Part shown: positions 3,521 through 26,757 of the stretch, piece after piece
Layout: the number at the start of each line of letters is the position of its first letter
Position numbering within the stretch: the stretch's first letter is position 1
Source: a virus
Strand: one strand, 5' to 3'
IMG/VR virus record: IMGVR_UViG_3300027911_000048
Location: 1-30,099 of that record
Length of the DNA: 30,099 nucleotides
Translations under genes and position numbers: made by a program
The notes under the pieces: generated by a model
Told to the model about the DNA's origin: nothing
The model's input: only the letters and a program-made list of their open reading frames with translations
Database searches by the model: none

Positions 3521-3549
3521 TTGACGTTGTAAATAGTTTTCGCTATACT
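3521..3549 (+). promoter_or_regulatory. Sigma70-type promoter
   Basis: TTGACG at 3521-3526, a 17-base spacer and TATACT at 3544-3549. Each hexamer matches consensus at five of six positions. It lies directly after the late adhesin gene and about 30 bases before the start at 3581, which has a GGAT-type ribosome site. It would allow the glycan-related pair to be expressed by host RNA polymerase independently of the fibre genes. Confidence 0.8.
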
Positions 3550-3580
3550 GATATTATAATAACTATAATAGGATAAACCA

Positions 3581-10979: not shown

Positions 10980-11196
10980 AGATATCGTAACAAAGACAAC
11001 TCTTGGTAAGAACGGAAAGCCAAAAAAGATAAGAGACGCTGCGTTTTTCTATTGTCCGTACATTCCTCTAATGACTGTAATTCACATTGATACTACAGCG
11101 TGGACAAAACAACAACAAGAAGAAATACTCGGTATACCAATAACTATAAAGTTCAACACAAGATATGGCGTCCAAAGTAAAAATACGGATCAATGA
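10966..11196 (+). CDS. Small hypothetical protein between uvsY and uvsW
   Basis: A 77-residue protein from ATG 10966 (MINYKDIV). An in-frame upstream ATG at 10942 would give a deeper overlap with uvsY and lacks support. The start lies 14 bases inside uvsY and the end runs 32 bases into uvsW, an unusually nested arrangement implying translational coupling. The sequence has a basic start (LGKNGKPKKIRD), then a hydrophobic stretch (FFYCPYIPLMTVIHI) that is too interrupted to be a clear membrane helix, and a basic end. I do not recognise it. Coding is likely because its frame fills the span between two good genes. Confidence 0.65.
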   Translation: MINYKDIVTKTTLGKNGKPKKIRDAAFFYCPYIPLMTVIHIDTTAWTKQQQEEILGIPITIKFNTRYGVQSKNTDQ

Positions 11197-12745
11197 CGAA
11201 GCAAATGCAGTCGTCCTGGGACTATCTGACGAACACCAAGAATACTTCTATGACAAGTATGCTGTCCCTGCACCTAACTATTTCTTCAATCCAAAGTACA
11301 AGTTAGGTCAATGGGACGGGAAGATCCGTTTCTTTCACAAGACAGGTAAGACATTTCTTTATCTTCTTGAAGACATCATTCCTCGTATAGCAAAACTTGG
11401 ATACAAACTCGAGCTCGAAGACTTACGAACAACAATCCTTCAAACGCCACAACCTATTGACAATCAGTACTTTGCTCACGTACAACACGTTGAGACAAAG
11501 GCTCCAACTATTCTTCGTCCACATCAGGTAGAAGCTATCAATGCAGCAACGACATACGGCAATGGAGTTATTATTGCTGCAACCGGTGCTGGTAAGACAT
11601 TGATAACTGCTGCACTATGTGACATCTATGGTAAGCTTGGAATGAAGACGATCACGATCGTTCCAAACCAAGACTTGATCTCACAGACAAAAGCAGACTT
11701 CTCACATTATGGATTAGACGTTGGTGAGTATTCTGGTAAAGAGAAGACGCTTGATCATCAACACATTGTTTCAACTTGGCAGGCATTGAAGAACAACCCA
11801 AAGATCCTACTGATGTTTCAAGTAGTAGTTGTTGACGAATGTCATGGATTGAAAGGAAACGTTCTTACAAAGTTGCTGGTTGAGCATAGTGCAAAAATCC
11901 CATATCGTTTTGGAGTAACAGGAACACTACCAAAAGAGAAGTCAGACAAGATGGCTGTTCACGTTGCTGTCGGTCCTGTTCGTTATGAAGTTGATGCAGC
12001 ATACTTGATCGATAAAAAGATCCTTGCATCACTAAACATAAGCATCTTACAACTTGAAGAAGACTTTCGTACGGAATATGAAACATTTTGTCGAGATCAC
12101 GAAGCGTGGGTCAACTCACTAACAGAACGAGAACGTATCCTTGCAAAAGATCAAGGTACCGATAAAGTGCCAACATATATTCAGTTCAAGGATCAATACT
12201 TCACAGACTTTGAAGCAGAAAAGACATACTTGCATCATAAGGAAGATCGTTTAGAAACGATCGCGCAGTTTATCGAACAAAAGCGTGATATGAAGAAAGG
12301 CAATGTTTTGTGTCTTGTTGATCGTATTGACTTTGCAAGACGCCTTGCTGCTTTGATACCTGATGCAATACTTGTCAATGGCAAAGATATCAAACAAAAA
12401 GACCGCAAGAGCGTGTATAAAATGTTCGAGGACAATGACAACTTGATCGTTATCGCGACAGTGCATATTGCCGGCACTGGCTTGAACATACCGCGTATTT
12501 TCAACTTGATGATCGTTGATATAGGCAAGTCATTCATTCGTGTTATTCAGGGTATCGGTCGAGGCTTACGACTTGCAGAAGATAAGACTCACTTAAACGT
12601 AACAGATATTTGTAGCGACTTGAAGTACAGCAAACGACACGTTGCTGAAAGAATAAGGTATTACAAAGAGGCAAAATATCCACACAAGAAGTCAAAGATT
12701 GACTACTCTGCCCATTCAAAAGCTGTTGCTACTGTTGAACAATAA
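11165..12745 (+). CDS. uvsW: Recombination helicase UvsW
   Basis: A 526-residue SF2 helicase. An N-terminal domain of about 110 residues (KYKLGQWDGKIRFF, 44-57) is the UvsW-specific DNA-binding region. The helicase core follows: RPHQ at 118-121, Walker A ATGAGKT at 139-145, DECH at 224-227, the TGT motif in FGVTGTLPK at about 252, and the second RecA fold with GTGLNIPR and QGIGRGLR near 430-465 (motifs V and VI). UvsW remodels branched DNA, drives branch migration and unwinds R-loops, shifting T4 from origin-initiated to recombination-driven replication. In T4 it is a late protein; here no late promoter is visible directly upstream, so control may differ. Confidence 0.93.
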   Translation: MASKVKIRINDEANAVVLGLSDEHQEYFYDKYAVPAPNYFFNPKYKLGQWDGKIRFFHKTGKTFLYLLEDIIPRIAKLGYKLELEDLRTTILQTPQPIDNQYFAHVQHVETKAPTILRPHQVEAINAATTYGNGVIIAATGAGKTLITAALCDIYGKLGMKTITIVPNQDLISQTKADFSHYGLDVGEYSGKEKTLDHQHIVSTWQALKNNPKILLMFQVVVVDECHGLKGNVLTKLLVEHSAKIPYRFGVTGTLPKEKSDKMAVHVAVGPVRYEVDAAYLIDKKILASLNISILQLEEDFRTEYETFCRDHEAWVNSLTERERILAKDQGTDKVPTYIQFKDQYFTDFEAEKTYLHHKEDRLETIAQFIEQKRDMKKGNVLCLVDRIDFARRLAALIPDAILVNGKDIKQKDRKSVYKMFEDNDNLIVIATVHIAGTGLNIPRIFNLMIVDIGKSFIRVIQGIGRGLRLAEDKTHLNVTDICSDLKYSKRHVAERIRYYKEAKYPHKKSKIDYSAHSKAVATVEQ

Positions 12746-13312: not shown

Positions 13313-13744
13313 ATGGTTGAACCTAAAAAATTATCAGTAAAAGAATTCAAGATGTGGTTGAGTGGCGTTGAGGAAATGCAAGGAGCCGATTGGTCTCCTG
13401 ATGCTAATCAATGGGCAAAGATCCGTGCAAAGATCGAACAGCTTAACGAAGTCGTAGAAGTTCCACCACAGGCTACCCAGCCATATACTGGTTATAGAGG
13501 TGCTCCTCCAGCGGCAAGTGCTCCAGCATTTGTTCCTCCAGCGGCAAGTGCTCCAGCTGCAGGTCCTACATTTCAACCGCCTCCAAGCGATCTTGGAGCG
13601 CAAACACAAGTAGTACCAAACGTACCATCAGCACCAGTTCGTGTTGCTCCAGGAATCCCTCTCGCAACAGGCCAAGGAAACATTCCTATCAAGACGCCTG
13701 ACATCGACACGTTTGGAAAGCCATATGGATCAAGTTTCGCATAA
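13313..13744 (+). CDS. Hypothetical protein with conserved N-terminal WLSGVEEM module and Pro/Ala-rich linker
   Basis: The chosen start is ATG 13313 (MVEPKKLS), about seven bases after GGGGA; a GTG at 13274 and an ATG at 13307 are in frame but less well placed. This gives 144 codons including stop. Residues 1-45 (KEFKMWLSGVEEMQ...WSPDANQWAKIRAKIEQL) form a compact Trp-containing helical module of a kind I associate with small T4-like phage proteins of unknown role. Residues 55-125 are a Pro/Ala/Val linker containing a repeated APPAASAPA unit encoded by exact DNA repeats. The tail is TPDIDTFGKPYG. A helical domain plus flexible tether suggests a bridging or scaffolding role. It overlaps the polymerase fragment by 20 bases. 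Confidence 0.75.
   Translation: MVEPKKLSVKEFKMWLSGVEEMQGADWSPDANQWAKIRAKIEQLNEVVEVPPQATQPYTGYRGAPPAASAPAFVPPAASAPAAGPTFQPPPSDLGAQTQVVPNVPSAPVRVAPGIPLATGQGNIPIKTPDIDTFGKPYGSSFA
13504..13557 (+). repeat. Tandem 24-base direct repeat in the Pro/Ala-rich linker
   Basis: TCCTCCAGCGGCAAGTGCTC plus CAGC is identical at 13504-13527 and 13534-13557, period 30 bases (10 residues). Exact identity at the DNA level points to recent slippage or unequal recombination. Confidence 0.9.
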
Positions 13745-14267
13745 ACTAAAGAACAGAACACTCTGGTTTGATGGAGATAGCAGTTTTGATGGAAGTGATA
13801 TACTTTCTGTCGTCCAGCACTATCCAAATGTTCAGTTTGTCAATGAACTAACTCCACTGATCGAACAGTACAACAATACTGTTCCATCGAGTGAGCGCCT
13901 ATCCGTCAAAACAAATTGTAGGGAACTTTCGTTTCAATGGAACATTCCAAAAAAGTATCTTGACGTCAACGTTGAAAAATATATCATCAAAGCACTCGAT
14001 CATGAACTTGAACATTTCAAGAGCGATAAAGATCAATTTGCACGATTGTCGCGGGTCGCACAAGAGATCAAATTGTATCGGAAGATGGGTCTAATACCTG
14101 TACTACGAACTATCATTTACGTTATAAATACACTCGCTGCTAACAATATCGTTTGGGGAGTCGGACGAGGAAGTAGCGTATCATCATATGTCCTTTATTT
14201 AATAGGTGCTCACGATGTTGATAGCGTCAAGTATAATTTGGACATTCACGACTTCCTACACAACTAA
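13725..14267 (+). CDS. Family C DNA polymerase (DnaE / Pol III alpha) fragment A: palm segment with GRGS motif
   Basis: A 180-residue protein from ATG 13725; an open frame continues upstream to 13641 but only inside the previous gene. The C-terminal 70 residues align by eye with the DnaE palm: EIKLYRKMG (114-121) for the usual E-L-x-V-I-x-x-MG; VWGVGRGSSVSSYVLYLIG (143-161) for vGpGRGSaaGSlvaY-x-L-x-I; HDVDSVKYNL (163-172) for tDiDPl-x-y-L; and DFLHN (176-180) for eRFLN. The protein ends precisely there. In cellular DnaE the next residues are the catalytic DxDxD motif, which here begins the gene at 26185. The N-terminal PHP domain is absent. Either a split minimal polymerase or a derived regulator; the homology is strong, activity unproven. 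Confidence 0.82.
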   Translation: MDQVSHKLKNRTLWFDGDSSFDGSDILSVVQHYPNVQFVNELTPLIEQYNNTVPSSERLSVKTNCRELSFQWNIPKKYLDVNVEKYIIKALDHELEHFKSDKDQFARLSRVAQEIKLYRKMGLIPVLRTIIYVINTLAANNIVWGVGRGSSVSSYVLYLIGAHDVDSVKYNLDIHDFLHN

Positions 14268-14278
14268 GGAGAATTAAT

Positions 14279-14512
14279 ATGGCAAAGGGCGTATCAGCAA
14301 GAGGTAAAGAGGTCGACTTCGACTTGATGAAGATTCAAAAGCAGTTGGGTGCTCAACCAGCTCCAACAACAGTCGCAGCTCGTCAAAGTTTCGTTGATCA
14401 AAAAATGAAGCGTGCGCAGCGCGCATTAGCTCGTGCAGCAAAGACAACAGTAGCTCCAGCAGGAGAAGTTGTCGTAGAGCCAAAAGTAGAAGATAATAAT
14501 ACAGAAGAATAA
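14279..14512 (+). CDS. Small conserved-looking phage protein of unknown function
   Basis: A 77-residue protein with a strong AAGGAGAAT ribosome site directly upstream, right after the polymerase fragment. The N-terminus (KGVSARGKEVDFDLMKIQKQL) resembles small T4-like phage proteins of unknown role beginning with an (N/S)-A-R-G-x-x-V-D-F-D-L-x-K-I motif. The middle is basic and helical (FVDQKMKRAQRALARAAK), the tail is acidic. No enzymatic motif is visible. It could bind nucleic acid or a larger partner. Confidence 0.75.
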   Translation: MAKGVSARGKEVDFDLMKIQKQLGAQPAPTTVAARQSFVDQKMKRAQRALARAAKTTVAPAGEVVVEPKVEDNNTEE

Positions 14513-14539
14513 GCAACACCAAATAATAAGGATATTATA

Positions 14540-14884
14540 ATGCAGATCAAGCCGATCAAGAATCATATTGTATTTCAATTTCTCGACGCCGTCGACTCAA
14601 AGGGACAATTTGTCCGAACGACGAAGTCAGGAATTATCTTGGGTAGTCACTATGACGACAGCGCGAAGTCAGCACGATGGGCTAACGTAATTGCAGTTGG
14701 TCCACAAGTGTGTGAAGAACTTCGCGTTGAGGGATGTCAAATTCTTGTTGCTCCACTAAAGTGGACATCTTTCTTTCTTTTCAATGATCAAAAACATTGG
14801 CGGACAGACGAAAATGAAGTGTTGATGTATCGATATCCAGAGGACATCGAGGACGAACACTACAGTGGAATCTACGCCGACTAA
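14540..14884 (+). CDS. GroES/gp31-like co-chaperonin
   Basis: A 114-residue protein, close to T4 gp31 (111) and GroES (about 97). IKPIKNHIVFQF matches the GroES start (i-k-P-l-x-x-R-v-x-v), TTKSGIILGSH at about 27-37 matches the mobile-loop end KT-x-gGIilp, WANVIAVGP at about 49-57 matches g-x-ViAVGpG, and CQILVAPLKWTSFFL sits where GroES has the v-k-x-GD-x-Vl-f segment. Phage co-chaperonins replace GroES on host GroEL, enlarging the cage to fold the capsid protein. It has an AAGGAT ribosome site and is not next to capsid genes in this window. Sequence identity is low, so the call rests on motif order. Confidence 0.65.
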   Translation: MQIKPIKNHIVFQFLDAVDSKGQFVRTTKSGIILGSHYDDSAKSARWANVIAVGPQVCEELRVEGCQILVAPLKWTSFFLFNDQKHWRTDENEVLMYRYPEDIEDEHYSGIYAD

Positions 14885-14895
14885 AGGAGCAAGTG

Positions 14896-16281
14896 ATGAG
14901 TTTTATTTGGATGCTAATATTAGCAGCTATAACTATAGCTGGTGCTGCAGAATTTTTTAGTGTATATGGTCTCGCTCATACGTTCAGTGGCGTATTCTGG
15001 TCTGTTGTTATTATGGGTGGTGCTCTTGGTTTTGGAAAGCTTGTCGGACTATCATTCCTTTATCGTTATTGGAAACAGACACCAATTGTTCTTCGCACAT
15101 ACTTGACGGTTGGTATTATCAGTTTGATGATTTTAACATCGGTTGGTATCTTCGGATATATGAGTGCTGGATATCAACAAGATAGCCTTCCGTTGAAGCA
15201 AATGAACGAACAAATCACACTGTTGCAAGGCGAGAAAGATCGTCTCATTGATCGTAAGAAACAAATCGACGACCTGCTTGCAAAGGCACCAGCTATCAGC
15301 GCGACAACAAATAAGAACGGTGAGATCGATCCAAACGCAACTCGTGCCATTAATGCTGCAACTCGTGCTCGTGAACAAGCTAATGCTCAGTATAAAGTTG
15401 AGCAACGTGAAGCAACACAGCGGATTACAGAACTTGATAAACAGCTGCTTACGTTAAAGCAGCAACAAATTGCAACAAATGTTCATATTGGTCCTATCAC
15501 ATACATTGCAGAAGCGTTTGGATTGTCTCCTGACAATGCGACAAAGTATCTTGTTTTGATGATCATTTTCGTTTTCGATCCTATGGCTGTTGCTCTTACG
15601 CTTGCTGCCAATATTGCAATTCGGATTCGCGAAGAAGAAAAGAAGAAGCCAAACGATCCAACTCTTGATCAAATGCTCGAAAAGTTTGATCCGGAAAAGC
15701 ATAATGGTCAAGAGGAACCTGCTCGTCCAGTTATGGAATATAAAGTAGAAGAAGCAACACCAGAAATGAAGGAAGCGATTGACTTTCTAATGGACGATGA
15801 GCCATCAAAAGGAATCAATATGGAGGCTCCTCTTGGACCATCTGCAACAGAATGGACGCAAGAGAAACAAGACGAATTGAAAGAAGTCTTATCAAGATAT
15901 TATCCTGTTGACGAAAACGATAAGCGGTTTGAGGCAGCTACGCCAGCACCAGAACAAGAGGTGGTTCAGGCAGTTACTGAGGACGTTCCCGTTACTAAGG
16001 AGGTGATTGAACAAATCCCAGAAGCGGCACCGAGCGCGGAAGAACCCAAGCAATCTGAGCCACCTCTTGCTCCACAGCCAGCACCAACGAATGATATGAC
16101 ACATGTAATTAGTGGAATGGATACAAGCACTGGAAACAAGATAATGGAGCTCCTTCAACATTATCGTGCACTTGCAACTAAGCAATCCGATGGTTATTCG
16201 TTGAACGAAACAGAACGTTGGGAACTCTCTCAACTTCGCAGACTCTTGCACGACAAAGGGTTTGCAGCCTACCTTGACTAA
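14896..16281 (+). CDS. Membrane protein with multiple helices, central coiled coil and long acidic tail
   Basis: ATG 14896 is preferred over GTG 14893 because the AAAGGAGC site lies at better distance. Residues 1-23, about 33-57 and 68-92 are hydrophobic membrane helices, followed by a coiled coil (about 100-195, with LKQMNEQITLLQGEKDRLIDRKKQID). A fourth hydrophobic segment follows, with YLVLMIIFVFDPMAVALTLAANIA (about 215-240). The C-terminal 210 residues are acidic and Pro/Glu-rich. The FVFDP-(M/L)-A-V motif after a coiled coil occurs in uncharacterised membrane proteins of T4-like phages, as far as I can recall. Location is the inner membrane. Function is unknown; anchoring of replication or lysis-timing/superinfection roles are possible. 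Its last codons contain the -35 box of the clamp-loader promoter. Confidence 0.75.
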   Translation: MSFIWMLILAAITIAGAAEFFSVYGLAHTFSGVFWSVVIMGGALGFGKLVGLSFLYRYWKQTPIVLRTYLTVGIISLMILTSVGIFGYMSAGYQQDSLPLKQMNEQITLLQGEKDRLIDRKKQIDDLLAKAPAISATTNKNGEIDPNATRAINAATRAREQANAQYKVEQREATQRITELDKQLLTLKQQQIATNVHIGPITYIAEAFGLSPDNATKYLVLMIIFVFDPMAVALTLAANIAIRIREEEKKKPNDPTLDQMLEKFDPEKHNGQEEPARPVMEYKVEEATPEMKEAIDFLMDDEPSKGINMEAPLGPSATEWTQEKQDELKEVLSRYYPVDENDKRFEAATPAPEQEVVQAVTEDVPVTKEVIEQIPEAAPSAEEPKQSEPPLAPQPAPTNDMTHVISGMDTSTGNKIMELLQHYRALATKQSDGYSLNETERWELSQLRRLLHDKGFAAYLD

Positions 16282-16302
16282 CCTCATTGGACATAGTATA
16301 AT
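16274..16302 (+). promoter_or_regulatory. Near-consensus sigma70 promoter for the clamp-loader operon
   Basis: TTGACT at 16274-16279 (inside the end of the membrane-protein gene), a 17-base spacer and a perfect TATAAT at 16297-16302. An AAAGGGA ribosome site and ATG 16329 follow. This should be one of the strongest host-type promoters in the window. Confidence 0.88.
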
Positions 16303-16328
16303 TCCTGTACGATATAAAGGGAAATTCT

Positions 16329-17258
16329 ATGTCCAATAATAAACTTTGGGTCGAAAAATATCGACCAAAGACAGTCGATCAATACGTCTTTCAAGATGCA
16401 AACCTTCGTGCAAACGTTGATCAATGGATCAAAGAAAAGACAATTCCACATCTGCTATTATCAGGCGTTCAAGGGAGTGGCAAGACGACGCTCGCGTTTA
16501 TATTGATCAATGCGATGGGTTTGGATCAGTCAGACATTCTTATTATCAATGCATCAGATGAAAACAATGTTGACACGATGCGCGAGAAGATTAAAGGATT
16601 TGTTACGTCTTGGGCAATGGGTCCATTCAAGGTTGTTCTTCTTGAAGAGGCAGATGCAATGTCTCATCCTGCACAAGGGATCTTACGTCGATTGATGGAG
16701 GAATTCTCTGATACGAGTCGATTCATTTTGACTTGTAATTACGACAACAAGATCATTCCTGCGATTAAATCACGGTGCCAACAATTTCATTTCAAGAGTC
16801 CAAACAAAGACGATATTCTTGCATATCTCGTTGGTATACTCGACGATGAAAACGTATCCTTCAAACTCCCATTACTCCATAAGTATATAGCATACGCATA
16901 TCCAGATATTCGGAAGATTGTAAATGCAATGCAGCAAAATTGCATTGACGGTAAGCTAACAGCTCCTCAATCTGATGCAGAAGCAGGTGATTATAAATTT
17001 CAGCTTCTCGATCTAATTGAAAATGATAAGTGGCAAGACGCTCGTAAGTTGCTGTGTGGTAATGTTGCAAACGACGAATGGGAAGGCGTATATCGATTCC
17101 TGTATGAAAACTTGGATCGTGCTCCTCGGTTTGCTCCAAAGGATGCCTGGGAACAAGGAATTGTAATTATTGCTGATCATCTATACAAGGATGGTCTTGT
17201 ATCAGACCGCGAGATTAATGCTGCAGCAATGTTGATTGAGTTGGGGAAGGTGCCGTAA
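16329..17258 (+). CDS. 44: Clamp loader large subunit, gp44 family (AAA+ ATPase)
   Basis: A 309-residue protein near T4 gp44 length. WVEKYRPKTVDQYVFQD (7-23) is the classic RFC/gp44 opening. Walker A is GVQGSGKT (46-53). The Walker B region reads VVLLEEAD (102-109), with Glu where most clamp loaders have the first Asp of DEAD. LTCNY (134-138) is sensor 1 and SRC (148-150) carries the arginine finger. A helical collar fills the C-terminus. With gp62 it loads the sliding clamp gp45 using ATP. It starts an overlapping operon that continues to 20213, and its stop overlaps the next start (TAATG). Confidence 0.93.
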   Translation: MSNNKLWVEKYRPKTVDQYVFQDANLRANVDQWIKEKTIPHLLLSGVQGSGKTTLAFILINAMGLDQSDILIINASDENNVDTMREKIKGFVTSWAMGPFKVVLLEEADAMSHPAQGILRRLMEEFSDTSRFILTCNYDNKIIPAIKSRCQQFHFKSPNKDDILAYLVGILDDENVSFKLPLLHKYIAYAYPDIRKIVNAMQQNCIDGKLTAPQSDAEAGDYKFQLLDLIENDKWQDARKLLCGNVANDEWEGVYRFLYENLDRAPRFAPKDAWEQGIVIIADHLYKDGLVSDREINAAAMLIELGKVP

Positions 17259-17674
17259 TGGGAGAAGACGAAATCGAAGGCACCGTTTGGGATCCAAACG
17301 AAGAAATAGACGTAGGAGACTGGTCGCTTGATACATCAGGTAATACTGTTCCACTAACAACATTACCGTCCAACTGTTCAGGCGTTGCGATGCAATCCCC
17401 AATGACTCCACCTACGATGGTGATTGCTGGAACTGATCCTGCGTTCGATAGAATGATCACAATTAATGACGACGATGGTAATGTGCTCGTTGAGATTATG
17501 AAAACCGGAAAGATTAAATTTCATGACATATACGAACCGGATACGACAGCAAGAATATTTTGGAATGCAATAACAATGCGTGGTAAGCAATTCTATACAT
17601 TGATGAAACAAAACGAGGATCTTGAACGAGAAGTACAAAACCTAAAACAACAATTACAGGAGAAGATGCGATGA
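17258..17674 (+). CDS. Hypothetical phage protein with a beta module and C-terminal coiled coil
   Basis: A 138-residue protein translationally coupled to gp44 by one-base overlap. The first 65 residues are acidic and low-complexity. Residues about 66-106 (MITINDDDGNVLVEIMKTGKIKFHD...EPDTTARIFWNAI) form a recognisable unit I associate with uncharacterised phage proteins: two short strands around D-G-x-V-L-V-x-I-x-x-x-G-x-I-x-F followed by a helix with PD-x-(A/T)-AR-x-FW. A coiled coil (NEDLEREVQNLKQQLQEKM) ends it. It may present the strand module as an adaptor, but its function is unknown. Location inside the clamp-loader operon hints at a replication-linked role. Confidence 0.75.
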   Translation: MGEDEIEGTVWDPNEEIDVGDWSLDTSGNTVPLTTLPSNCSGVAMQSPMTPPTMVIAGTDPAFDRMITINDDDGNVLVEIMKTGKIKFHDIYEPDTTARIFWNAITMRGKQFYTLMKQNEDLEREVQNLKQQLQEKMR

Positions 17675-18300
17675 GCACAAAATCACAAACAGGCGACTAT
17701 AATCTATATCGACCAACCAGCCAACTTGGCACAGGTCCAACATATGTCATTCCATACACAAACGTTTTTGGCAATCCATCAACGTATGCATTTGGTCCTC
17801 CTGCTACGTACAGCTTAACAAGCCCATTTTATTACCTCGATACGCGTAGTAGTCTAACTGCAGAAATTGAAAGACTCCAAGCACGAGTAACAGAACTTGA
17901 AAATAAATTACAAGAGGCAGAGGAGACTATTGATCTTATGTCATATGTTAAATCAATTTCAACTCCAGTACCAGTATCGCAATTCTATTATGATAATCCT
18001 GACTTGGTAACGTCATCATTTGATGTCGATCTCGCAGAGCTAAAGAAAGCAATCGATCAACTAAATGAAATGCACCAATCTGTTGCAAAACACAACGATC
18101 CATCGTTTCCAGACGATGACGATGATTATAGTATGGACGGTTGCCAATGCGATCAGGGCACAGAACTTCAACTCGATCTAAATCTTGATGATTGGATTCG
18201 TGCAGTAAAGGAAGAAGAGAAGCGACAAGAACAAGCAACAAAGACACCGGAGCAAGTTGCAAATGAAGCATATGAGCGTTCAATGAGAGGTTTTCGATAA
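17671..18300 (+). CDS. Hypothetical coiled-coil protein
   Basis: A 209-residue protein starting in an ATGA overlap with the previous stop. Residues 1-55 are rich in Tyr, Pro, Gly, Ser and Thr (GTGPTYVIPYTNVFGNPSTYAF has a low-complexity look). Residues 58-95 form a coiled coil (SLTAEIERLQARVTELENKLQEAEETI). The region about 145-160 is acidic with DDDDD, and one CQC pair lies at about 154-156. I do not recognise it. The disordered aromatic N-terminus joined to a coiled coil could mediate assembly. Confidence 0.75.
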   Translation: MSTKSQTGDYNLYRPTSQLGTGPTYVIPYTNVFGNPSTYAFGPPATYSLTSPFYYLDTRSSLTAEIERLQARVTELENKLQEAEETIDLMSYVKSISTPVPVSQFYYDNPDLVTSSFDVDLAELKKAIDQLNEMHQSVAKHNDPSFPDDDDDYSMDGCQCDQGTELQLDLNLDDWIRAVKEEEKRQEQATKTPEQVANEAYERSMRGFR

Positions 18301-18337
18301 TAGTTGTAAGTGCGAAATACACATAAGGAGAATTACC

Positions 18338-18673
18338 GTGGCAAGACGCAAGAAACCAGAAGATGAAACAGATCAGCAAACAGCAGTCCGTCGCTTGAAG
18401 GATGCAATTGCCGACAAGAGCACGCGATCTGAAAAAGTATCATGGGATCGTAAGATGGACCTAATGGTCAAGAAAATATCAGAACTTCGTCCAATCGAGG
18501 ATGAAATTGTTCGTCTTCAATCACAGAAAATTCCATTATTTGATGAGATTGCTGCACTGCGCAATGAAATGGTTGAGTCCTGCACACATCCATTTACTCA
18601 CCTTACAGAAAAAGACGGAAAGATCATCTGTAAGTTTTGCAACCACACATTCGCTGTTGTGAACAATGGATAA
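18338..18673 (+). CDS. Coiled-coil protein with C-terminal zinc ribbon (first of two)
   Basis: The start is GTG 18338 with a good AAGGAG site seven bases upstream. The product has 111 residues: a basic N-terminus (ARRKKPED), a helical coiled-coil centre (EDEIVRLQSQKIPLFDEIAALRNEM), then C-T-H-P about 82-85 and C-K-F-C at about 98-101, a Cys/His...Cys-x-x-Cys zinc-binding pattern. The protein at 19130 has the same plan. It overlaps the probable gp62 gene by eight bases. It may bind DNA or a protein of the clamp-loader complex; this is inference from position. Confidence 0.7.
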   Translation: MARRKKPEDETDQQTAVRRLKDAIADKSTRSEKVSWDRKMDLMVKKISELRPIEDEIVRLQSQKIPLFDEIAALRNEMVESCTHPFTHLTEKDGKIICKFCNHTFAVVNNG

Positions 18674-19133
18674 GAAACTTGACTTGTTTAAGACGTTGGG
18701 GCAAATCGATCGTAAGAATTATCAAGCGTTTTCAGAGTTTGATGATGGGCAACGAAAAGAATTTGCACCGTACGTTTATCTCCGTTGGCTGTCGGGGACT
18801 TCGAACAAACAGCAAGTTGTTCTCCTAAATGAGTTCGTCAATCCTGTTGCCTTTTACTTCACATTGAAGGATCATTCGCACAAGGAATTATTATTCAAAC
18901 TAATGACAGTATGCACTTCTGGCTCGGGACAACGATATAGTTGGAGCATTCCTAAAAGAGCACAAGGTTCAAAACCATTGAGCAATCAAGTTGTCCGACA
19001 AGCATATCGTTATAATTTTCGTAAGGCAGAAGATGCACTGAAAGTTTTGACAGCAGAAGATGTCGTTGAGATGGCGGAGCAGCAGGGAAAGCAAAAGGAC
19101 GAGATCAAATTAATAACTAAGGAATGGAAATGA
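18666..19133 (+). CDS. 62: Probable clamp loader small subunit, gp62 family
   Basis: A 155-residue protein against 187 in T4. Gp62 proteins diverge strongly, but the order of features fits: FAPYVYLRWLSG (about 33-44) for T4 D-Y-S-K-F-M-V-x-x-x-L-S; a VLLNEFVN segment for the A-x-N-L-I stretch; HKELLFKLMTVCTSGSGQRYSW (about 71-92) for the x-x-N-Y-L-M-x-A-V-P-R-G-K-R-Y-x-K-W region; a helical QAYRYNFRKAEDAL segment; and an end with KQKDEIKLITKEW similar to the T4 gp62 C-terminus. It lies in the gp44 operon, three genes downstream rather than adjacent. Its start is coupled to the previous gene by an 8-base overlap. Reasonable but not certain. Confidence 0.6.
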   Translation: MDKKLDLFKTLGQIDRKNYQAFSEFDDGQRKEFAPYVYLRWLSGTSNKQQVVLLNEFVNPVAFYFTLKDHSHKELLFKLMTVCTSGSGQRYSWSIPKRAQGSKPLSNQVVRQAYRYNFRKAEDALKVLTAEDVVEMAEQQGKQKDEIKLITKEWK

Positions 19134-19513
19134 GAATTAATAAAACACCAGCACCAACAGTAGTCTCCCAGCGTCAATATCATCGCAGAAACTTTTTTCG
19201 TACGTTGAAAGAGTTTTGTGGAGACGTCGAGTTTAAGAATGGTGATATTCTTCACAAGAAGATCGAACTTCGTGCTGCAAAGACGAAGCATACAAAAATT
19301 GTTAATTTGCAAATGGAGATTGCTGAAAAGCAACAAGAATTGCTTGCACAGCAAGCAAAGTTGAAAGAAACGTGTCCTCACCCGTTGGAATATTTAATGC
19401 ACTGTGAAAAGTATACAGAAGATGAGTTTGGTTCTCACTCTGCAAATATGGACACGGAGTGGATTGAATGTGAACTGTGTGGAACACAAACACATGCTAC
19501 AACGCGGGTTTAA
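19130..19513 (+). CDS. Coiled-coil protein with C-terminal zinc ribbon (second of two)
   Basis: ATG 19130 forms an ATGA overlap with the gp62 stop and has AAGGA six bases upstream; ATG 19124, in frame, would leave almost no spacing. The product has about 127 residues: a basic N-terminus with RQYHRRNFFRTLKEF, a coiled coil (NLQMEIAEKQQELLAQQAKLK), then C-P-H-P and, about 28 residues later, C-E-L-C-G. The same coiled coil plus C-x-HP...CxxC plan appears in the protein at 18338, so the two may be ancient paralogues flanking gp62. Function unknown. Confidence 0.7.
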   Translation: MRINKTPAPTVVSQRQYHRRNFFRTLKEFCGDVEFKNGDILHKKIELRAAKTKHTKIVNLQMEIAEKQQELLAQQAKLKETCPHPLEYLMHCEKYTEDEFGSHSANMDTEWIECELCGTQTHATTRV

Positions 19514-19529
19514 TATTAATGAGAGGATT

Positions 19530-20213
19530 ATGAGCTCACGAGGCAAATGGACATGTAAGTTTTGTCACAAGCCTTTCGTTCTCGAACTTCGGTTTGAGGC
19601 GCATAAGTGTAAGCAAATGATCCGTCAAGAAGAAGCAAAGACGCCAGATGGTCAAATGGCGTACTATTACTATCAACTTTGGCTTCGTGCAACAAAGAAA
19701 AATCCACCACCGATTTCGTCGTTTATTTCGTCAAGATACTTTCGGACGTTTATGGAATTTGCAAGGTTCGTCAAGAGCGTCAACTTGCCCAAGCCTGAAA
19801 CGTTTATCAAACTAATGACAAGCAAGGACTTTACGCCAACGATGTGGCGATCTAATGACGTGTATGTGATCTATTTGGAATTTGTTGATAACAAACTACC
19901 GCCAATGAAGCACGTAGAATTGTCTGTTAAGACAATTCTTGACTATTGCGAAAAGAATGAAATTGAGACATCACAGTACTTTGAAACTATTAACCCAAAT
20001 GAAGTTATTCAGCTAATTCAAGCTCGTCAACTGTCTCCGTGGTTGCTATTATTGAGTAATTCGTTCAAGAAAATGTTCGCAGAACGAACAAGTCCTGAGC
20101 AAAAAGTAATTCTTGAAACGTTAATCCGTCCCGAAACGTGGGGCGAAAAGATTGCAGAACGTGCAGAAGACGTCAACCGGATAAAGGTCCTGATCAAAGA
20201 GTTGTCCGTATAA
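19530..20213 (+). CDS. Zinc-finger protein with helical body, possibly gp59-like helicase loader
   Basis: The start is ATG 19530 with a GAGAGGA site; in-frame ATGs upstream lie inside the previous gene. The product has 227 residues. The first 30 contain C-K-F-C and H-K-C spaced as a C2H2/C2HC finger (WTCKFC...FEAHKC). The rest is all-helical. The pattern around FTPTMWRSNDVYVIYLEFVD (about 108-127), TILDYCEKNEI and LSPWLLLLSNSFKKMF (about 168-183) loosely follows the gp59 helicase-loader layout in T4. Position at the end of the clamp-loader operon would suit a replisome assembly factor. The gp59 idea is weak; the zinc finger and helical content are directly visible. Confidence 0.4.
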   Translation: MSSRGKWTCKFCHKPFVLELRFEAHKCKQMIRQEEAKTPDGQMAYYYYQLWLRATKKNPPPISSFISSRYFRTFMEFARFVKSVNLPKPETFIKLMTSKDFTPTMWRSNDVYVIYLEFVDNKLPPMKHVELSVKTILDYCEKNEIETSQYFETINPNEVIQLIQARQLSPWLLLLSNSFKKMFAERTSPEQKVILETLIRPETWGEKIAERAEDVNRIKVLIKELSV

Positions 20214-20233
20214 ATAGGAGATAAACCTATTTA
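20209..20233 (+). promoter_or_regulatory. T4-type late promoter overlapping a perfect inverted repeat
   Basis: TATAAATA at 20209-20216 is the exact T4 late promoter sequence, 31 bases before the fibre start at 20247. Bases 20211-20218 (TAAATAGG) and 20226-20233 (CCTATTTA) form a perfect 8-bp inverted repeat. A late sigma factor of gp55 type is expected but not in this window. Confidence 0.75.
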
Positions 20234-20246
20234 ATGGACAACACGC

Positions 20247-22178
20247 ATGTCAAATTACACGCTTGCCTTTTCTGATCCGCTAAAAACGACAATATCGTTG
20301 AATTCTTCTGGTGCTGGCTTCATTGGACCAGTTGGTTCAACATCGTCGCCAGTATTGAATATATCATTAGCGCTGTATGGCCAGAACCACACACAGTGGG
20401 GCAGTGGGTTTGATAATAACCAACTATACCTGCTTGAAAGCTTTGCTGGTGCATCAACACCTCCGTCTCCAGTAGAAGGACAAATTTGGTATACAGTTCG
20501 TGCATATCGTTATTGCACAGCCAACAGCACATGGTATTTTTGGAATTACACATTGCAGACGTGGTCGACAATGTCAACGCCACCATCATATGCAAATTTT
20601 GCTTCATTTCCAACGTCAGCAGTAATTAACTCATATGCTCGTGCTACAGACACTGGTGCTTTATATCAGTTTATTCAACAAGGCGCGCCGAATAATTTAA
20701 CAGCTCCTGCATGGATCCAACGCCGTTATGATACCGTTCCTGCTGATCCAACAACAATCGTTGGTTCGCCAAACTACTATCCAACGTCATATGTTCGTTA
20801 TTACAACACAGGTCGTGGTTGGGTTAATCCATCGCTTGTTACTTCTGTTACAGCAACAGCAGATATTCCATATGGAAATCGTGGCGTTGTTGATGGAGAA
20901 ATTTGGTTTGACTCAACAAAAGGTGTGATGTCGTTATACGACGGTCTTACTGGTCTACCTCGTCCAGTAATTGATCCAAACGTTGCATCGCCAATCTTTG
21001 TTCCAACAACCGGTGGTACAATTACATCTGGCACGTTGACAATTTCTTCATTGACAGCAAATTCTTTTATATATTCTGGTGCAGGTGGTACATTGACAAC
21101 AACTACTGCACCAACAAATAGTCAAGTTCTTGTTGGTAGATCGGGACTTGCACCAGTAGCAATGACACTACAAGCTGGCACAGGAATGAATTTGAATAAT
21201 ACAGGTGCGGCAATAATTTTTAATAATACTGGTGTTACTGCACTTAATAATTTTGGCGGTTTGAATATTTCTGCATCAACAGGTAGCATCAACATTTCTA
21301 ACGCTGGTGTCCTTACTTTTAATACAAGGGCAGGTGCTGTTACATTAACGTCTACTGATGTTACATCAGCTCTTGGATATACTCCTTATAATCCGGCATC
21401 TGGCGTCGTTACCAGCGTAAATGCTGTTTCAGGAAATTCAGGAATTTCTGTATCTGGCGGTCCAATTACAACATCAGGAACTCTTACAATATCAGGAAAT
21501 CTTTTCACGAGCGGTGCACAAGGTGATGTACCAGCATCGGGTGGTGGAACAACAAATTATTTGCGAGCCGATGGTGGTTGGCATTCAGCATTGCAGACAG
21601 CAACTATTACAGCAGGTGCAGGTCTATCTGGCGGTGGAACAATAAGTGGTTCTGGCGGATCTGTTACGTTAAACAACACTGGCGTCACAGCAATCTATGC
21701 TGGTACGAATATTTCTGTTTCTGCTAACACCGGTGGTGTTACAGTCAATAGTACAGCAGTTGCACCAACATCATCTGTACATTGGAGTTATGGAAACGTC
21801 TTACAAAATACAGGAAGTAATTCTGTGTTGAATTTTCAATCTGCTAATAGTAGTCCTGTTGGATTATCAAGTTACTCAGGTGGTACAGTAGTTGTTGGTA
21901 CTTCAGGCTATTATTTCATAAGTGCGAATGTTACTGTTGGATATAATGGCGGCGCTAGTGGAGCAGGAAGCCATATACAAGTTTTCATCAATGGTGCTGG
22001 ACAATATGCACAAAACCGATGGACAGAAAACAACAACACAGGCGAGTGGAGTTCTCTATCTGTATCAGGAATATTCTATGTTTATGCAGGACAGACAATA
22101 GCAATTCATTATACAAATGAATATAATTGCTACTGCTTTGGTGGATATGGGTCGTTCTGTGGTTTCAGAATTGCATAA
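20247..22178 (+). CDS. Tail fibre protein with shared attachment domain and C1q-like tip
   Basis: A 643-residue protein and the first of three tandem fibres sharing an N-terminal domain of about 75 residues: Y-x-(I/L)-x-(F/Y)-(S/T)-(D/E), a Gly/Ser stretch, L-x-L-x-G-x-G-x-x-x-x-G, and finally P-P-x-P-x-x-GQ-x-W-(Y/F). This domain presumably plugs into the baseplate or a connector. The middle (about 250-500) is Gly/Thr/Ser/Asn beta-rich. The last 130 residues have strands resembling a C1q/TNF-like jelly roll (SGYYFISANVTVGYNGG; GIFYVYAGQTIAIHY), a common receptor-binding tip. The start at 20247 has only a weak GGA ribosome site; an out-of-frame ATG lies 13 bases upstream. Expressed late from TATAAATA. 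Confidence 0.8.
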   Translation: MSNYTLAFSDPLKTTISLNSSGAGFIGPVGSTSSPVLNISLALYGQNHTQWGSGFDNNQLYLLESFAGASTPPSPVEGQIWYTVRAYRYCTANSTWYFWNYTLQTWSTMSTPPSYANFASFPTSAVINSYARATDTGALYQFIQQGAPNNLTAPAWIQRRYDTVPADPTTIVGSPNYYPTSYVRYYNTGRGWVNPSLVTSVTATADIPYGNRGVVDGEIWFDSTKGVMSLYDGLTGLPRPVIDPNVASPIFVPTTGGTITSGTLTISSLTANSFIYSGAGGTLTTTTAPTNSQVLVGRSGLAPVAMTLQAGTGMNLNNTGAAIIFNNTGVTALNNFGGLNISASTGSINISNAGVLTFNTRAGAVTLTSTDVTSALGYTPYNPASGVVTSVNAVSGNSGISVSGGPITTSGTLTISGNLFTSGAQGDVPASGGGTTNYLRADGGWHSALQTATITAGAGLSGGGTISGSGGSVTLNNTGVTAIYAGTNISVSANTGGVTVNSTAVAPTSSVHWSYGNVLQNTGSNSVLNFQSANSSPVGLSSYSGGTVVVGTSGYYFISANVTVGYNGGASGAGSHIQVFINGAGQYAQNRWTENNNTGEWSSLSVSGIFYVYAGQTIAIHYTNEYNCYCFGGYGSFCGFRIA

Positions 22179-22189
22179 GAGGAAATATA

Positions 22190-23974
22190 ATGGCATACAT
22201 AATTAATTTTTCTGAACCAACAAAGAGTTCATTTACAATCAACGATAATGGATTCGATGGTCCAGGTGGAAGTGCACAAAGCTCGACACTGCGACTATAT
22301 GGTCGTGGTGCTCTTGAATGGGGCGAGAGTGTTGATGAAGACTTGCTTCGTTCATTAGAAAGCTATGCAAGTGCAACACCACCATATCCAGCAGTCGAAG
22401 GACAACTTTGGTTTGGTGTCGCTTTGTACTGGTACAATATTGGAACTGGACAATGGTTCCGTTGGGACTATCCAGCAGGAACATCAAACTCAAGCACAAT
22501 GGCTCCATTAAATTCAAATGGTGTCGGCTCTACATTAGCTAATGGTTCGTGGGTTTCAATTACACCAATAATCTATACATCGTATGCAGCACTACAAGCA
22601 GCAACAGGAACAATTGGTCAATATGCATTCGTTACTGATACGCCAGGAAATACAATTCGTCAACTGTATCGTTGGGACATTCCTTACGCAGAAGCAGCAC
22701 CACAGTGGATGCCAAGATTGTATAGATCAATAAACGGAAATCCAACGACTGGTAGTAATTTTCCAACGGGTAATTTGTATGTTTATAATCCATATATTCT
22801 TCATCACGAAGTTGCACCAACACCAACGTCGGCAAGTGCAAATCTCCCAACAATTAATGGATGGTATGATACATCTTCCATTCGTGTTCAAACAGGTTTC
22901 CCATCAAATCCAACTGTTGGACAAATGCTTCTTCTTACAAACGGTGTACCAACATTAATGGTTTGGGATGGTACTAGTTGGGGAATTGTTAATATTACAT
23001 ATAACGATATACGATATGTTTTTAAGTCCGGCGATACAATGACTGGCCCACTGTATTTAAATGCTGATCCAACACTACCGACGCAGGCGGCAACAAAGAA
23101 TTACGTTGATAGTATTGTTGGTGGAGCATCATACGTTCACATTGCTGGCAGCACAATGACTGGCCCACTGTATTTAAATGCTGATCCAACATTACCAACA
23201 CAGGCTTCAACAAAAAACTATACAGATTCTAAACTTGCAGTAACAGGTGGTCCGTTATCAGGCACGTTGAACATGACTGGAAACTATATCACAAATGTTG
23301 CAACGCCAATCAATAACAACGATGCAGCAAATAAGATATATGTTGATAGTCATGCAACGTTCACATTACCCGTTGGTGCTGTTATTATGTTGTATGGTGT
23401 TAATACAGCGCTTGGTGGTCCTAACTTTGATGGAACAGGTCTAGGAGTTCCAGGAAGTCCTTTTGCAGGTGCTACCGGTACGTGGGCTGTTTGTAATGGC
23501 AACCACGGAACGCCCAACTTGATTGGACAGTTTGTTCTTGGTCTTGCACCAGGAGCTGCAAATGCAACTGGTGGATCAAGCACGACAAACGCAACATCAC
23601 TAACAGGAGCAACTGCAAATGCATACACAGGCGTTTCTAATATTGGTACAGCATTGACGGCAGCGCAACTTCCTCCTCATCAACACGGTATGTTTACAGG
23701 AGATTATCCTGGATGGCCAATAACAGCTCCAACTAGTTCGTCAAGTGTAGCTTCTGGAGGCGGCGGTCATGCAAATTATGAAGCTTACTTTATGGCTCTT
23801 GGAACGTCAGCCGTATCTGTAGGACGGACAGATAGCGGTGTTGGTTTATCAGGCAGTGGACATACTCACACAGTAAGTGATCCATCACATGCACATAGCA
23901 TCAATCTTGGAACACACACGCACACGTTTACGCCACCATACTATAGTCTCGTTTATATCATGCGTGTTGCGTAA
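22190..23974 (+). CDS. Tail fibre protein with collar-type, His-x-His-rich tip
   Basis: The start is ATG 22190 with AAGAGGAAA upstream; a longer in-frame opening to 22127 lies inside the previous fibre. The product has 594 residues. It shares the attachment domain of the 20247 and 24001 fibres (LRLYGRGALEWGE, then PPYPAVEGQLWF). The middle has at least two copies of a T4-fibre-type repeat M-T-G-P-L-x-L-x-x-D-P-T-x-x-x-x-A-(A/S)-TKNY. The C-terminal 200 residues form a tail-collar-like domain: LPVGAVIMLYG, TPNLIGQFVLG, LPPHQHG, then HTHT, HAH and HTHTF, ending PPYYSLVYIMRV. Such H-x-H motifs chelate metal in T4 gp37-type tips. It is probably the short or long receptor-binding fibre. Confidence 0.85.
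   Translation: MAYIINFSEPTKSSFTINDNGFDGPGGSAQSSTLRLYGRGALEWGESVDEDLLRSLESYASATPPYPAVEGQLWFGVALYWYNIGTGQWFRWDYPAGTSNSSTMAPLNSNGVGSTLANGSWVSITPIIYTSYAALQAATGTIGQYAFVTDTPGNTIRQLYRWDIPYAEAAPQWMPRLYRSINGNPTTGSNFPTGNLYVYNPYILHHEVAPTPTSASANLPTINGWYDTSSIRVQTGFPSNPTVGQMLLLTNGVPTLMVWDGTSWGIVNITYNDIRYVFKSGDTMTGPLYLNADPTLPTQAATKNYVDSIVGGASYVHIAGSTMTGPLYLNADPTLPTQASTKNYTDSKLAVTGGPLSGTLNMTGNYITNVATPINNNDAANKIYVDSHATFTLPVGAVIMLYGVNTALGGPNFDGTGLGVPGSPFAGATGTWAVCNGNHGTPNLIGQFVLGLAPGAANATGGSSTTNATSLTGATANAYTGVSNIGTALTAAQLPPHQHGMFTGDYPGWPITAPTSSSSVASGGGGHANYEAYFMALGTSAVSVGRTDSGVGLSGSGHTHTVSDPSHAHSINLGTHTHTFTPPYYSLVYIMRVA
23036..23191 (+). repeat. 39-base exact direct repeat within the fibre gene
   Basis: The stretch beginning ACAATGACTGGCCCACTGTA is identical over 39 bases at 23036-23074 and 23153-23191, encoding the M-T-G-P-L-x-L-N-A-D-P-T unit twice. 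Exact DNA identity suggests recent duplication or conversion. Confidence 0.9.
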
Positions 23975-24000
23975 TAAATATTAAAAACTGAGGAACATCG

Positions 24001-26166
24001 ATGTCAAACTACGTAATTAGCTACACAGATACAACAGATACAACGGCTGGATATCTCAGCTCGTTTACTGTTCGTCCATATACATCTAATGGTCCTTCAA
24101 ACCCAACGACTGCAGCTCCACTACCAGCAACCGCGACGAGTGCTAATACTTCCATTGAAATCCTCGGTAAAGGATTTTTTGACTATGGTCAAGAAGTTGC
24201 AGAAAGTTTTGTTAACATGTTGGAGAATTTTGCTAACGTAAAATCTCCAGTTTATGCAATTCGTGGTCAGCAGTGGTACAAAAACAGAGCAGACGTAACA
24301 TCAGCATTCCCAACAGATTCAGGACAGTTGTTTATTCGTCGCAACTTATCTGCAATGCAGCTTGGACAAAATCCAACAACAGATGTGCCCGTGTGGGATC
24401 AAGTAGTTGTTGCTGGTAATCCTAATGCTGTTGTTCGTGGATCAATTCCTTTTGGCGGAACAGCAGGTGTGACAATTACAGGTCTTCCATTGCCGGCTGC
24501 ATCTGGTGACGCTGCAACAAAAAGTTATGTAGATACAGCTGTTAGTACTGCCGGCGGCAGCTTTGTGCCTTTGGCTGGTGGAACAATGACTGGTTTATTG
24601 ACTCTTTCAGGAAATCCAACAGTAGCACTTGGTGCAGCTACAAAGCAATATGTCGATGCATCAGTGATAGGTTTTGTGCCATTGGCTGGTGGAACAATGA
24701 CTGGTTCGTTGGTATTAAATGGAAATCCAACATTAGCACTTGGTGCAGCTACAAAGCAATATGTTGATACTGCAGTAACAGGAATTACAGGCTTTGTTCC
24801 TATTGCTGGATTTGTAACAATGACAGGACCGTTGATCCTTAACGGAGATCCAACAGCATCATTTGGTGCAGCAACAAAAAACTATGTTGATACAGTCACA
24901 CTTGGCACAGCACCACACAAGATTTCTGACGTTGTCGTTACAGCAGCAACGACAGGTCAGCTTCTACAATTCAATGGTACAAACTGGGTTAATGCTACAT
25001 ACGTTGCTCCTTCAACACCAATTAGCGGTTCGTTCAATTCAACAACAAGCACATTGACATTAACGACAAGTAATACGATTAATATTCCTATTGTTGTATC
25101 AACATCAACGGTTGCATGGAATGCTGATCCGTTGATTACAGGATCAGCATTGAGACAAGGTGCTGTGCAAGATCCAATGTATCCAAATCTTACAATTACA
25201 GATGCAATATCAATTATTGATCAGATGTTATTTGCATTGCGCAGTCGCAGTCGTACTGTATTCACAGGTGTGGGAATTAATTTTTCTTCTCCAACGCCGT
25301 TTATTGTCAATTCAAACTCATCAGAAGTATACATCGATGGGATTAAGCAAATATGTGATACGCGTGGAACATACTTGCAGCCAGTTCAACAAAAAGCTTA
25401 CTATGTTACAAGTGTTGTTACAGGAGCTGGTGGTAAGTGGGGCGTTGGTCCTGGTGATGTTAGTGGAGACTTTACAGTTGGTGAAAAAATTATTATTACA
25501 AATAACACATCACTTGATGCAAGTGCCGTTCCAGATCAAACATCGTACACCGTTGCAAGTGCCACATTTGATGGAATTTCACAAACGCTTGTTACAGTCA
25601 ATGAGACGATTCCGCCAGGAGCAATCGCAACTGGTAAATTAAATCACGCATTTGTTAATGGTACATCATCGGCAGCATCACCAACTGGACTCAGCTATAG
25701 CACTCCTTACTCATTCAATGCAACAGTTGATGGTGTAGGACCAACATTAGTCGCGTTTAGTATTACACCACCACCATCTCCTGCACCAGCTATTAGTTTT
25801 GTAAAACTAATTAGTATAATTAATACGGCAATGATTGCCTTAGGTCTTCAAGCTACAGCGATGCAACAAAATAATGCCGTCAATACATCTAATGGAATAT
25901 TATTTGTTTGTAATACATCAGGTGGAACAGGTACCGGCGCCGGAACAATATCATTGACAGATGTTAATTTATTCTCATCGTTAATGAACGCGACTGGTGT
26001 AACTGTAACGCCAGCATCTACTGTTGGCACATCATATGGATATCAGGAACAGGGTCAGCCGGGCTCTCCAACAACGTCAATTCAACTTGCTGCTGACCTT
26101 GCGGGTGGCACGATTGAATTTATATCCCTAACAAGTCTTCCAACGACTCTTGAAAATCTGGGCTAA
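24001..26166 (+). CDS. Tail fibre protein with repeated MTG...TKQYVD units
   Basis: A 721-residue protein and the third of the tandem fibres; CTGAGGAA lies nine bases before ATG 24001. The N-terminus carries a divergent copy of the attachment domain (IEILGKGFFDYGQEVAE, LLENF-like MLENFAN, GQQWYKN). Residues about 160-300 hold four units of about 37 residues, FVPLAGGTMTG-(L/S)-L-x-L-x-GNP-T-x-x-x-GAATKQYVD, similar to repeats in the 22190 fibre. The C-terminal half is beta-rich and unlike the tips of the other two, so a different receptor or structural role is likely. No self-cleaving chaperone is visible. Confidence 0.8.
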   Translation: MSNYVISYTDTTDTTAGYLSSFTVRPYTSNGPSNPTTAAPLPATATSANTSIEILGKGFFDYGQEVAESFVNMLENFANVKSPVYAIRGQQWYKNRADVTSAFPTDSGQLFIRRNLSAMQLGQNPTTDVPVWDQVVVAGNPNAVVRGSIPFGGTAGVTITGLPLPAASGDAATKSYVDTAVSTAGGSFVPLAGGTMTGLLTLSGNPTVALGAATKQYVDASVIGFVPLAGGTMTGSLVLNGNPTLALGAATKQYVDTAVTGITGFVPIAGFVTMTGPLILNGDPTASFGAATKNYVDTVTLGTAPHKISDVVVTAATTGQLLQFNGTNWVNATYVAPSTPISGSFNSTTSTLTLTTSNTINIPIVVSTSTVAWNADPLITGSALRQGAVQDPMYPNLTITDAISIIDQMLFALRSRSRTVFTGVGINFSSPTPFIVNSNSSEVYIDGIKQICDTRGTYLQPVQQKAYYVTSVVTGAGGKWGVGPGDVSGDFTVGEKIIITNNTSLDASAVPDQTSYTVASATFDGISQTLVTVNETIPPGAIATGKLNHAFVNGTSSAASPTGLSYSTPYSFNATVDGVGPTLVAFSITPPPSPAPAISFVKLISIINTAMIALGLQATAMQQNNAVNTSNGILFVCNTSGGTGTGAGTISLTDVNLFSSLMNATGVTVTPASTVGTSYGYQEQGQPGSPTTSIQLAADLAGGTIEFISLTSLPTTLENLG
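24571..24764 (+). repeat. 111-base-period tandem repeats in the third fibre gene
   Basis: TTGGCTGGTGGAACAATGAC plus TGGTT occurs at 24571-24595 and 24682-24706, and GCACTTGGTGCAGCTACAAA recurs about 111 bases apart downstream of each. They encode the MTG...TKQYVD units. Confidence 0.85.
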
Positions 26167-26178
26167 TAGTCGTATGAT
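26150..26178 (+). promoter_or_regulatory. Sigma70-type promoter implying a leaderless mRNA
   Basis: TTGAAA at 26150-26155, a 17-base spacer and TATGAT at 26173-26178, both five of six. Expected initiation seven bases on, at about 26185, coincides with the ATG of polymerase fragment B. No Shine-Dalgarno is present. Confidence 0.75.
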
Positions 26179-26184
26179 GTCTGT

Positions 26185-26757
26185 ATGGACATAGATATTG
26201 ATCTCCCGACATCTTTTGATCCTTTGAAAACATTCAAAGGTGCTATCCCTGCGTCTATGGTCAAGAACGACGAGTTGTCAAAGCATCCTTGTGGGGTATA
26301 TTTCCAACAAATTCCAACTGATCAGTATACGGGATTATCAGCAATACCGTACGAGCAAGCAGAACAATTAGGTTATTTTAAGATCGACTTCTTGCACCTT
26401 AATGTATTAAATACTATAACGAGTAAACAAGAGCTTCGTGAATTGATCGATCAAGAGCCAGACTGGAATTTATTTAATGATCGCAAAGTTGTTGAAAAGT
26501 TATTCCAACTTGGGAAGCAATATGAATTGATCTCAAAGTTGAAACCAAAGTCTGTTGATGACGTTGCAGATGTTCTTGCATTGATGCGTCCAGGAAAGAA
26601 ACACTTACTGCAAGACTATCTAAATAATAAACAAGAAGTCCGTAAAGAACTATATAAGAAGAACGATGACGGATATACATTCAAGCGATCACACGCTATC
26701 AGTTATGCGTTGACTATCATCGTACAGCTCCATTTAATAAAACAAAAGAGGATCTGA
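26185..26757 (+). CDS. Family C DNA polymerase (DnaE / Pol III alpha) fragment B: catalytic DIDID and finger motifs
   Basis: A 190-residue protein whose first residues are MDIDIDLP. This matches the P-D-x-D-(V/I)-D-F catalytic motif that directly follows FLN in DnaE; D4 and D6 correspond to E. coli D401 and D403. KHPCGVYF (33-40) matches h-A-(G/C)-GV; GYFKIDFLHLNVLNTI (63-78) matches G-L-x-K-x-DfLGL-x-x-L, with D68 as the third catalytic Asp (E. coli D555). SVDDVADVLALMRPG (123-137) matches the f-e-D-i-x-A-x-x-ALfRPGP segment, and YTFKRSHAISYALTI (164-178) matches y-x-FnkSHa-x-x-Ya-x-x. Spacings are shorter than in DnaE: about 100 residues are missing after DIDID and about 100 after RPG. Its partner half is at 13725. 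All three catalytic Asp are kept, so activity is conceivable. Confidence 0.85.
   Translation: MDIDIDLPTSFDPLKTFKGAIPASMVKNDELSKHPCGVYFQQIPTDQYTGLSAIPYEQAEQLGYFKIDFLHLNVLNTITSKQELRELIDQEPDWNLFNDRKVVEKLFQLGKQYELISKLKPKSVDDVADVLALMRPGKKHLLQDYLNNKQEVRKELYKKNDDGYTFKRSHAISYALTIIVQLHLIKQKRI

Follow-up and report, generated by a model that had tools for sequence, protein, structure and literature searches.

The locus studied here raises a simple question: can two short genes, separated by 11.9 kb, together encode a single DNA polymerase? The window, which is the whole stretch of DNA that was analysed, is an IMG/VR record of 30,099 nucleotides, and the genome from which it comes is probably larger. 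It contains two complete open reading frames on the forward strand, gene A (13725..14267, 180 amino acids) and gene B (26185..26757, 190 amino acids), with the coordinates and lengths given in a preliminary description of this DNA. That description proposed that they are the N-terminal and C-terminal halves of a minimal family C (DnaE-type) core. We find good support for a minimal family C core divided between two distant genes, in the profile and fold matches, the invariance of the catalytic residues, the selection on the genes, and the co-occurrence of the two: the pair is genuine, and it is present in dozens of jumbo phages.

Two consecutive parts of DnaE

Each reading frame was compared with profiles, a check that the preliminary description had suggested. 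Gene A matches DNA_pol3_alpha (PF07733) of Pfam over residues 87-179, with an E-value of 1.3e-10, and the family phrog_11127 of PHROGs at 8.5e-38; gene B matches DNA_pol3_finger (PF17657) over residues 94-157 at 7.1e-7, and phrog_11778 at 1.1e-64. Both PHROGs families are named 'DNA polymerase', and the Pfam and PHROGs matches of the two genes are well above chance. A six-frame search of the whole 30,099-nt record with PF07733 returns gene A as its sole match, at 1.4e-12. The absence of a DnaE match in both genes, which had been named as one of the outcomes that would refute the proposal, is thus not what the profiles show.

When aligned to E. coli DnaE, whose reference sequence was taken from NC_000913, gene A ends just past the GRGS block, with coverage up to F391-L392, and gene B starts, after its initiator methionine, at the equivalent of D401: the two genes do carry consecutive parts of DnaE, as had been claimed. 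The assignment of the catalytic aspartates, on the other hand, must be amended. The metal ligands of the C family are D401, D403 and D555, and position 405 is Asp in all DnaE groups and Asn in PolC (PMC3919608). In gene B, these ligands correspond to D2, D4 and D68. The triad first proposed was D4, D6 and D68, of which D4 and D68 stand; D6 is the equivalent of D405, outside the triad, and D2 was the missing member. Since D6 is an Asp, the phage form sides with DnaE, not with PolC. Two other equivalents complete the active site of gene B: K66, which corresponds to K553, and H170, which corresponds to H760, the steric gate by which DnaE selects deoxyribose (PMC8485763).

The residues of gene A that never vary, in 31 distinct sequences, are R110, E114, G145, G147, R148, G149 and S150. 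For gene B, with 38 distinct sequences, they are D2, D4, D6, H34, G37, D46, K66, D68, L70, W94, L106, P121, R135, P136, H170 and Y174, and the equivalent of DnaE Y764 is likewise invariant. In a wider set of gene B sequences, D2, D4 and D6 are conserved at a level of at least 90%, and K66, D68, H170 and Y174 are present without exception. The end of gene B also has a conserved QLHL[IF] motif, for which a clamp-binding reading was considered and set aside, its residues being aligned with the DnaE helix that follows H760.

The AlphaFold2 folds, computed with the relatives of each gene as input, are confident for both halves, with a pLDDT of 94.1 for gene A and 81.3 for gene B. The best ten PDB matches of gene A and the best 15 of gene B are all bacterial replicative polymerase chains, nearly all of them labelled Pol III alpha. 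The E-values of the gene A matches are modest, the best being 1.7e-3, and the query TM-scores of the separate halves against Pol III alpha are only 0.39-0.53.

Sequence comparison indicates that the pair is under strong purifying selection: in close pairs where dS is not saturated, the ratio dN/dS is approximately 0.06-0.18.

Occurrence in other phages

Relatives of gene B are found in 73 isolate phage records and, at close range, in 28 IMG/VR contigs. A single-sequence scan of IMG/VR for close relatives of gene A yields nothing, and an alignment-based profile is needed; this profile finds gene A in at least 592 places. The co-occurrence of the two genes was evaluated in 12 representative isolates: XacN1, RAS14, Atu_ph07, PA5oct, Phosso, XaC1, Slicko01, Vibrio 2.275.O, 121Q, RaK2, CBB and Munch. 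Each of the 12 has exactly one match to A, exactly one match to B, and a family B polymerase, so that both the conserved gene pair and the second polymerase, which the preliminary description had advised looking for in related phages, are there. The pair also occurs outside jumbo genomes, since that of Slicko01 is only 141 kb long. A family B polymerase is also found in most of the large IMG/VR relatives; none lies within the 30-kb record itself.

Gene A is present in 21 of the 28 IMG/VR records that bear gene B; in the other seven, the contig begins 0.3-7.5 kb upstream of B, and A is expected beyond its end. In the opposite direction, B is present in every tested A-bearing IMG/VR record of more than 150 kb. 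With three profiles, B was undetected in four A-bearing records of 108-148 kb (L106, L116, L123 and L156) and in several shorter ones; one A-bearing contig of 74.8 kb does carry B. The distance between A and B varies from 11 to 224 kb in the isolates, and A-only contigs may therefore be fragments: those of less than 150 kb without detectable B probably are, with A-only lineages as a possibility. Apart from these few contigs, another outcome named as adverse, relatives with one half only and no selection on the catalytic aspartates, did not occur.

The lengths of A and B stay within narrow ranges over many genomes, and no fusion of the two was found among about 190 open reading frames. The distance matrices of A and B have a correlation of r = 0.85, a value that shared ancestry alone can produce.

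A reduced core

Genes A and B total 370 residues in two chains, versus 1160 for E. coli DnaE. The preliminary description had noticed two shortened spacers, and these can now be identified with the thumb and with much of the fingers. The span from D401 to H511 has 29-33 residues in the phage family versus 110 in E. coli, and the thumb, which we take from the crystal structure to be about residues 433-510 of E. coli alpha, is gone; between R639 and H760, the median is 36 residues versus 121, and much of the fingers is gone. The PHP, HhH and OB parts, reported missing from the start, are indeed absent from A and B, neither of which has such a Pfam match. More generally, no other Pol III alpha domain has a Pfam match in A, in B, or in 20 other scanned open reading frames of the record. 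The PHP and HHH_6 domains, looked for as a possible third piece of the enzyme, are absent from all 12 isolate genomes. With the thumb and much of the fingers gone, the activity of the pair is not assured.

Genomic context

The preliminary description placed a T4-type clamp loader between the two genes, and a gp44-type clamp loader ATPase does lie there, two kb from gene A (16329..17258, forward strand; DNA_pol3_delta2 at 7.4e-14 and AAA at 8.1e-13 in Pfam). Upstream of gene A, also on the forward strand, are a UvsW-type helicase (11165..12745; ResIII at 1.6e-21, UvsW_N at 3.2e-7), a RecA/UvsX-like recombinase (7645..8772; PF00154 at 3e-19) and a gp32-like single-strand binding protein (6642..7589; PF08804 at 1.6e-13). 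The same replication and recombination cluster holds an RlaP-type nucleotidyltransferase of the pol-beta family, known from RNA repair pathways (8830-9888; PF10127 at 4e-16). Elsewhere in the record, the phage encodes a complete iron/manganese superoxide dismutase (28709-29320; PF02777 at 3.6e-32, PF00081 at 7.8e-20).

Among the isolates, XacN1, CBB and Munch have annotated clamp loaders close to A, and B is directly upstream of the genes for primase and a DnaB-type helicase in RaK2, 121Q and others. A DnaQ-type exonuclease scores above the family cut-off in 10 of the 12 isolates and, in 8 of the 12, lies 2.9-5.2 kb from B; this closeness makes it a candidate proofreading partner.

In several of these phages, the family B polymerase occupies two separate reading frames, as if split or interrupted: at positions 90907-94077 of record L002 (G001), 3529-5033 of Slicko01, 212336-213688 of Atu_ph07 and 217618-221395 of PA5oct. 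Atu_ph07 was published with two polymerase genes, gp276 and gp277 (PMC6102473).

Comparison with known systems

The split mini-polymerase was first taken to be new. It is not: Iyer et al. 2021 (PMC7824862) described the same minimal Pol III alpha, split in two and accompanied by PolB, in their "group 2.2" of jumbo phages, and the record is thus an uncultivated member of a published kind. There, as with A and B, an N-terminal NTP-binding protein and a C-terminal metal- and template-binding protein (PHROGs 11127 and 11778) are encoded by distant genes, and the other Pol III domains are absent; there is no essential difference with our pair, whose relatives, where tested, have the PolB companion. 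For CBB, Buttimer et al. 2017 reported a Pol III alpha truncated to 172 aa, together with gp43 and an epsilon-like protein (PMC5259590); for Atu_ph07, the subunits alpha and epsilon were mentioned in its 2018 publication (PMC6102473). In the literature searched, we found no experimental work or activity assay on the split enzyme. The present analysis goes beyond that of Iyer et al. 2021 with the deletion of the thumb, the evidence from the steric gate and D405, the absence of PHP and HHH_6 in the isolates, the DnaQ-type gene that 8 of 12 isolates have near B, and the presence of the pair in a 141-kb phage.

E. coli DnaE shares with A and B the palm motifs and the equivalents of D401, D403, D555, D405, K553 and H760, but it has the PHP, thumb, full fingers, HhH and OB parts, while the pair has lost most of the fingers and all the others. 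The full-length Pol III alpha of phage G and c-st (group 3.2 of Iyer et al. 2021, PMC7824862; phrog_405) is also a phage-encoded family C polymerase, but it consists of one long chain that includes a PHP domain, as opposed to two minimal chains. Other phage Pol III families, PHROGs 13169, 7513, 21652 and 11165, also match A or B: in those of 461-476 aa, the match is to A and confined to the region near their own C-terminus, or to B and in their middle, and in a family of 782 aa, A matches near the start of the family protein. These matches suggest that other split or PHP-less forms of phage Pol III may exist.

In cyanobacteria, DnaE is also encoded by two distant genes, the products of which are joined by a split intein. 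The site of the split differs from that of A and B, and no splicing is expected here because the end of A and the beginning of B are both DnaE motifs, with no spare sequence for an intein. A split intein between A and B, for which the junction has no room, was thus rejected, as it had been in the preliminary description.

Discussion

We infer that A and B probably form one catalytically active enzyme. Each would be one subunit of a minimal family C polymerase specific to phages, on the side of DnaE rather than PolC. Gene B would supply the metal-binding D2, D4 and D68, the residue equivalent to K553, and the helix of the steric gate, with H170 in the place of H760; gene A would supply the GRGS block, which in DnaE lines that side of the palm where the nucleotide binds. 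The two chains would meet at the point that corresponds to L392-D401 of DnaE, thus completing one palm. Given the lack of thumb, PHP, HhH and OB parts, the grip of such an enzyme on DNA is expected to be weak. Its specific role is less certain than its existence: most likely, it would be an accessory gap-filling or repair polymerase working beside the phage family B replicase, and possibly served by the separate DnaQ-type exonuclease. It is also possible, though doubtful, that these phages have two replicases, a T4-like PolB and a Pol III-like enzyme encoded by three genes, namely A, B and that of the DnaQ-type exonuclease; the thumbless core of this enzyme, with its two chains, would then be the smallest family C polymerase known to us, and would serve on one strand or during recombination-dependent replication.

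Losing a template-gripping thumb and most of the fingers while retaining the catalytic residues could also lead to an active nucleotidyltransferase of the pol-beta fold, one that does end processing or adds short primers or tails rather than carrying out templated synthesis, all the more so in phages that already have a full PolB. However, the helix and the histidine of the steric gate, responsible for deoxyribose selection in DnaE (PMC8485763), are invariant, which suggests that dNTPs are used in a polymerase-like pocket and leads us to regard such a transferase as unlikely.

The remaining alternatives deny that A and B form an enzyme. Each half resembles a part of DnaE, and partial chains could compete for the partners of Pol III, in which case A and B would act as mimics, binding to components of the host replicase or blocking them. 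Yet the parts of alpha that contact its partners, the PHP, clamp-binding and C-terminal regions, are precisely the missing ones, and a mimic does not need metal ligands or equivalents of K553 and H760, all of which are invariant in the 38 distinct gene B sequences. The conservation of the whole active site weakens this reading, which seems quite improbable. Finally, the absence of much of DnaE and the distance between the genes might evoke the decaying relics of a captured dnaE. Selection data already contradict this: dN/dS is well below 0.2, lengths vary little over many genomes, the active site is invariant, and A and B are both kept in all 12 isolates. Between the invariant residues and the dN/dS values, decay is a virtually untenable explanation.

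If A and B do assemble into a single enzyme and polymerise, they would define the minimal catalytic core of family C, and the phages that carry them would have a replisome that mixes a bacterial-type polymerase with one of archaeo-eukaryotic type.
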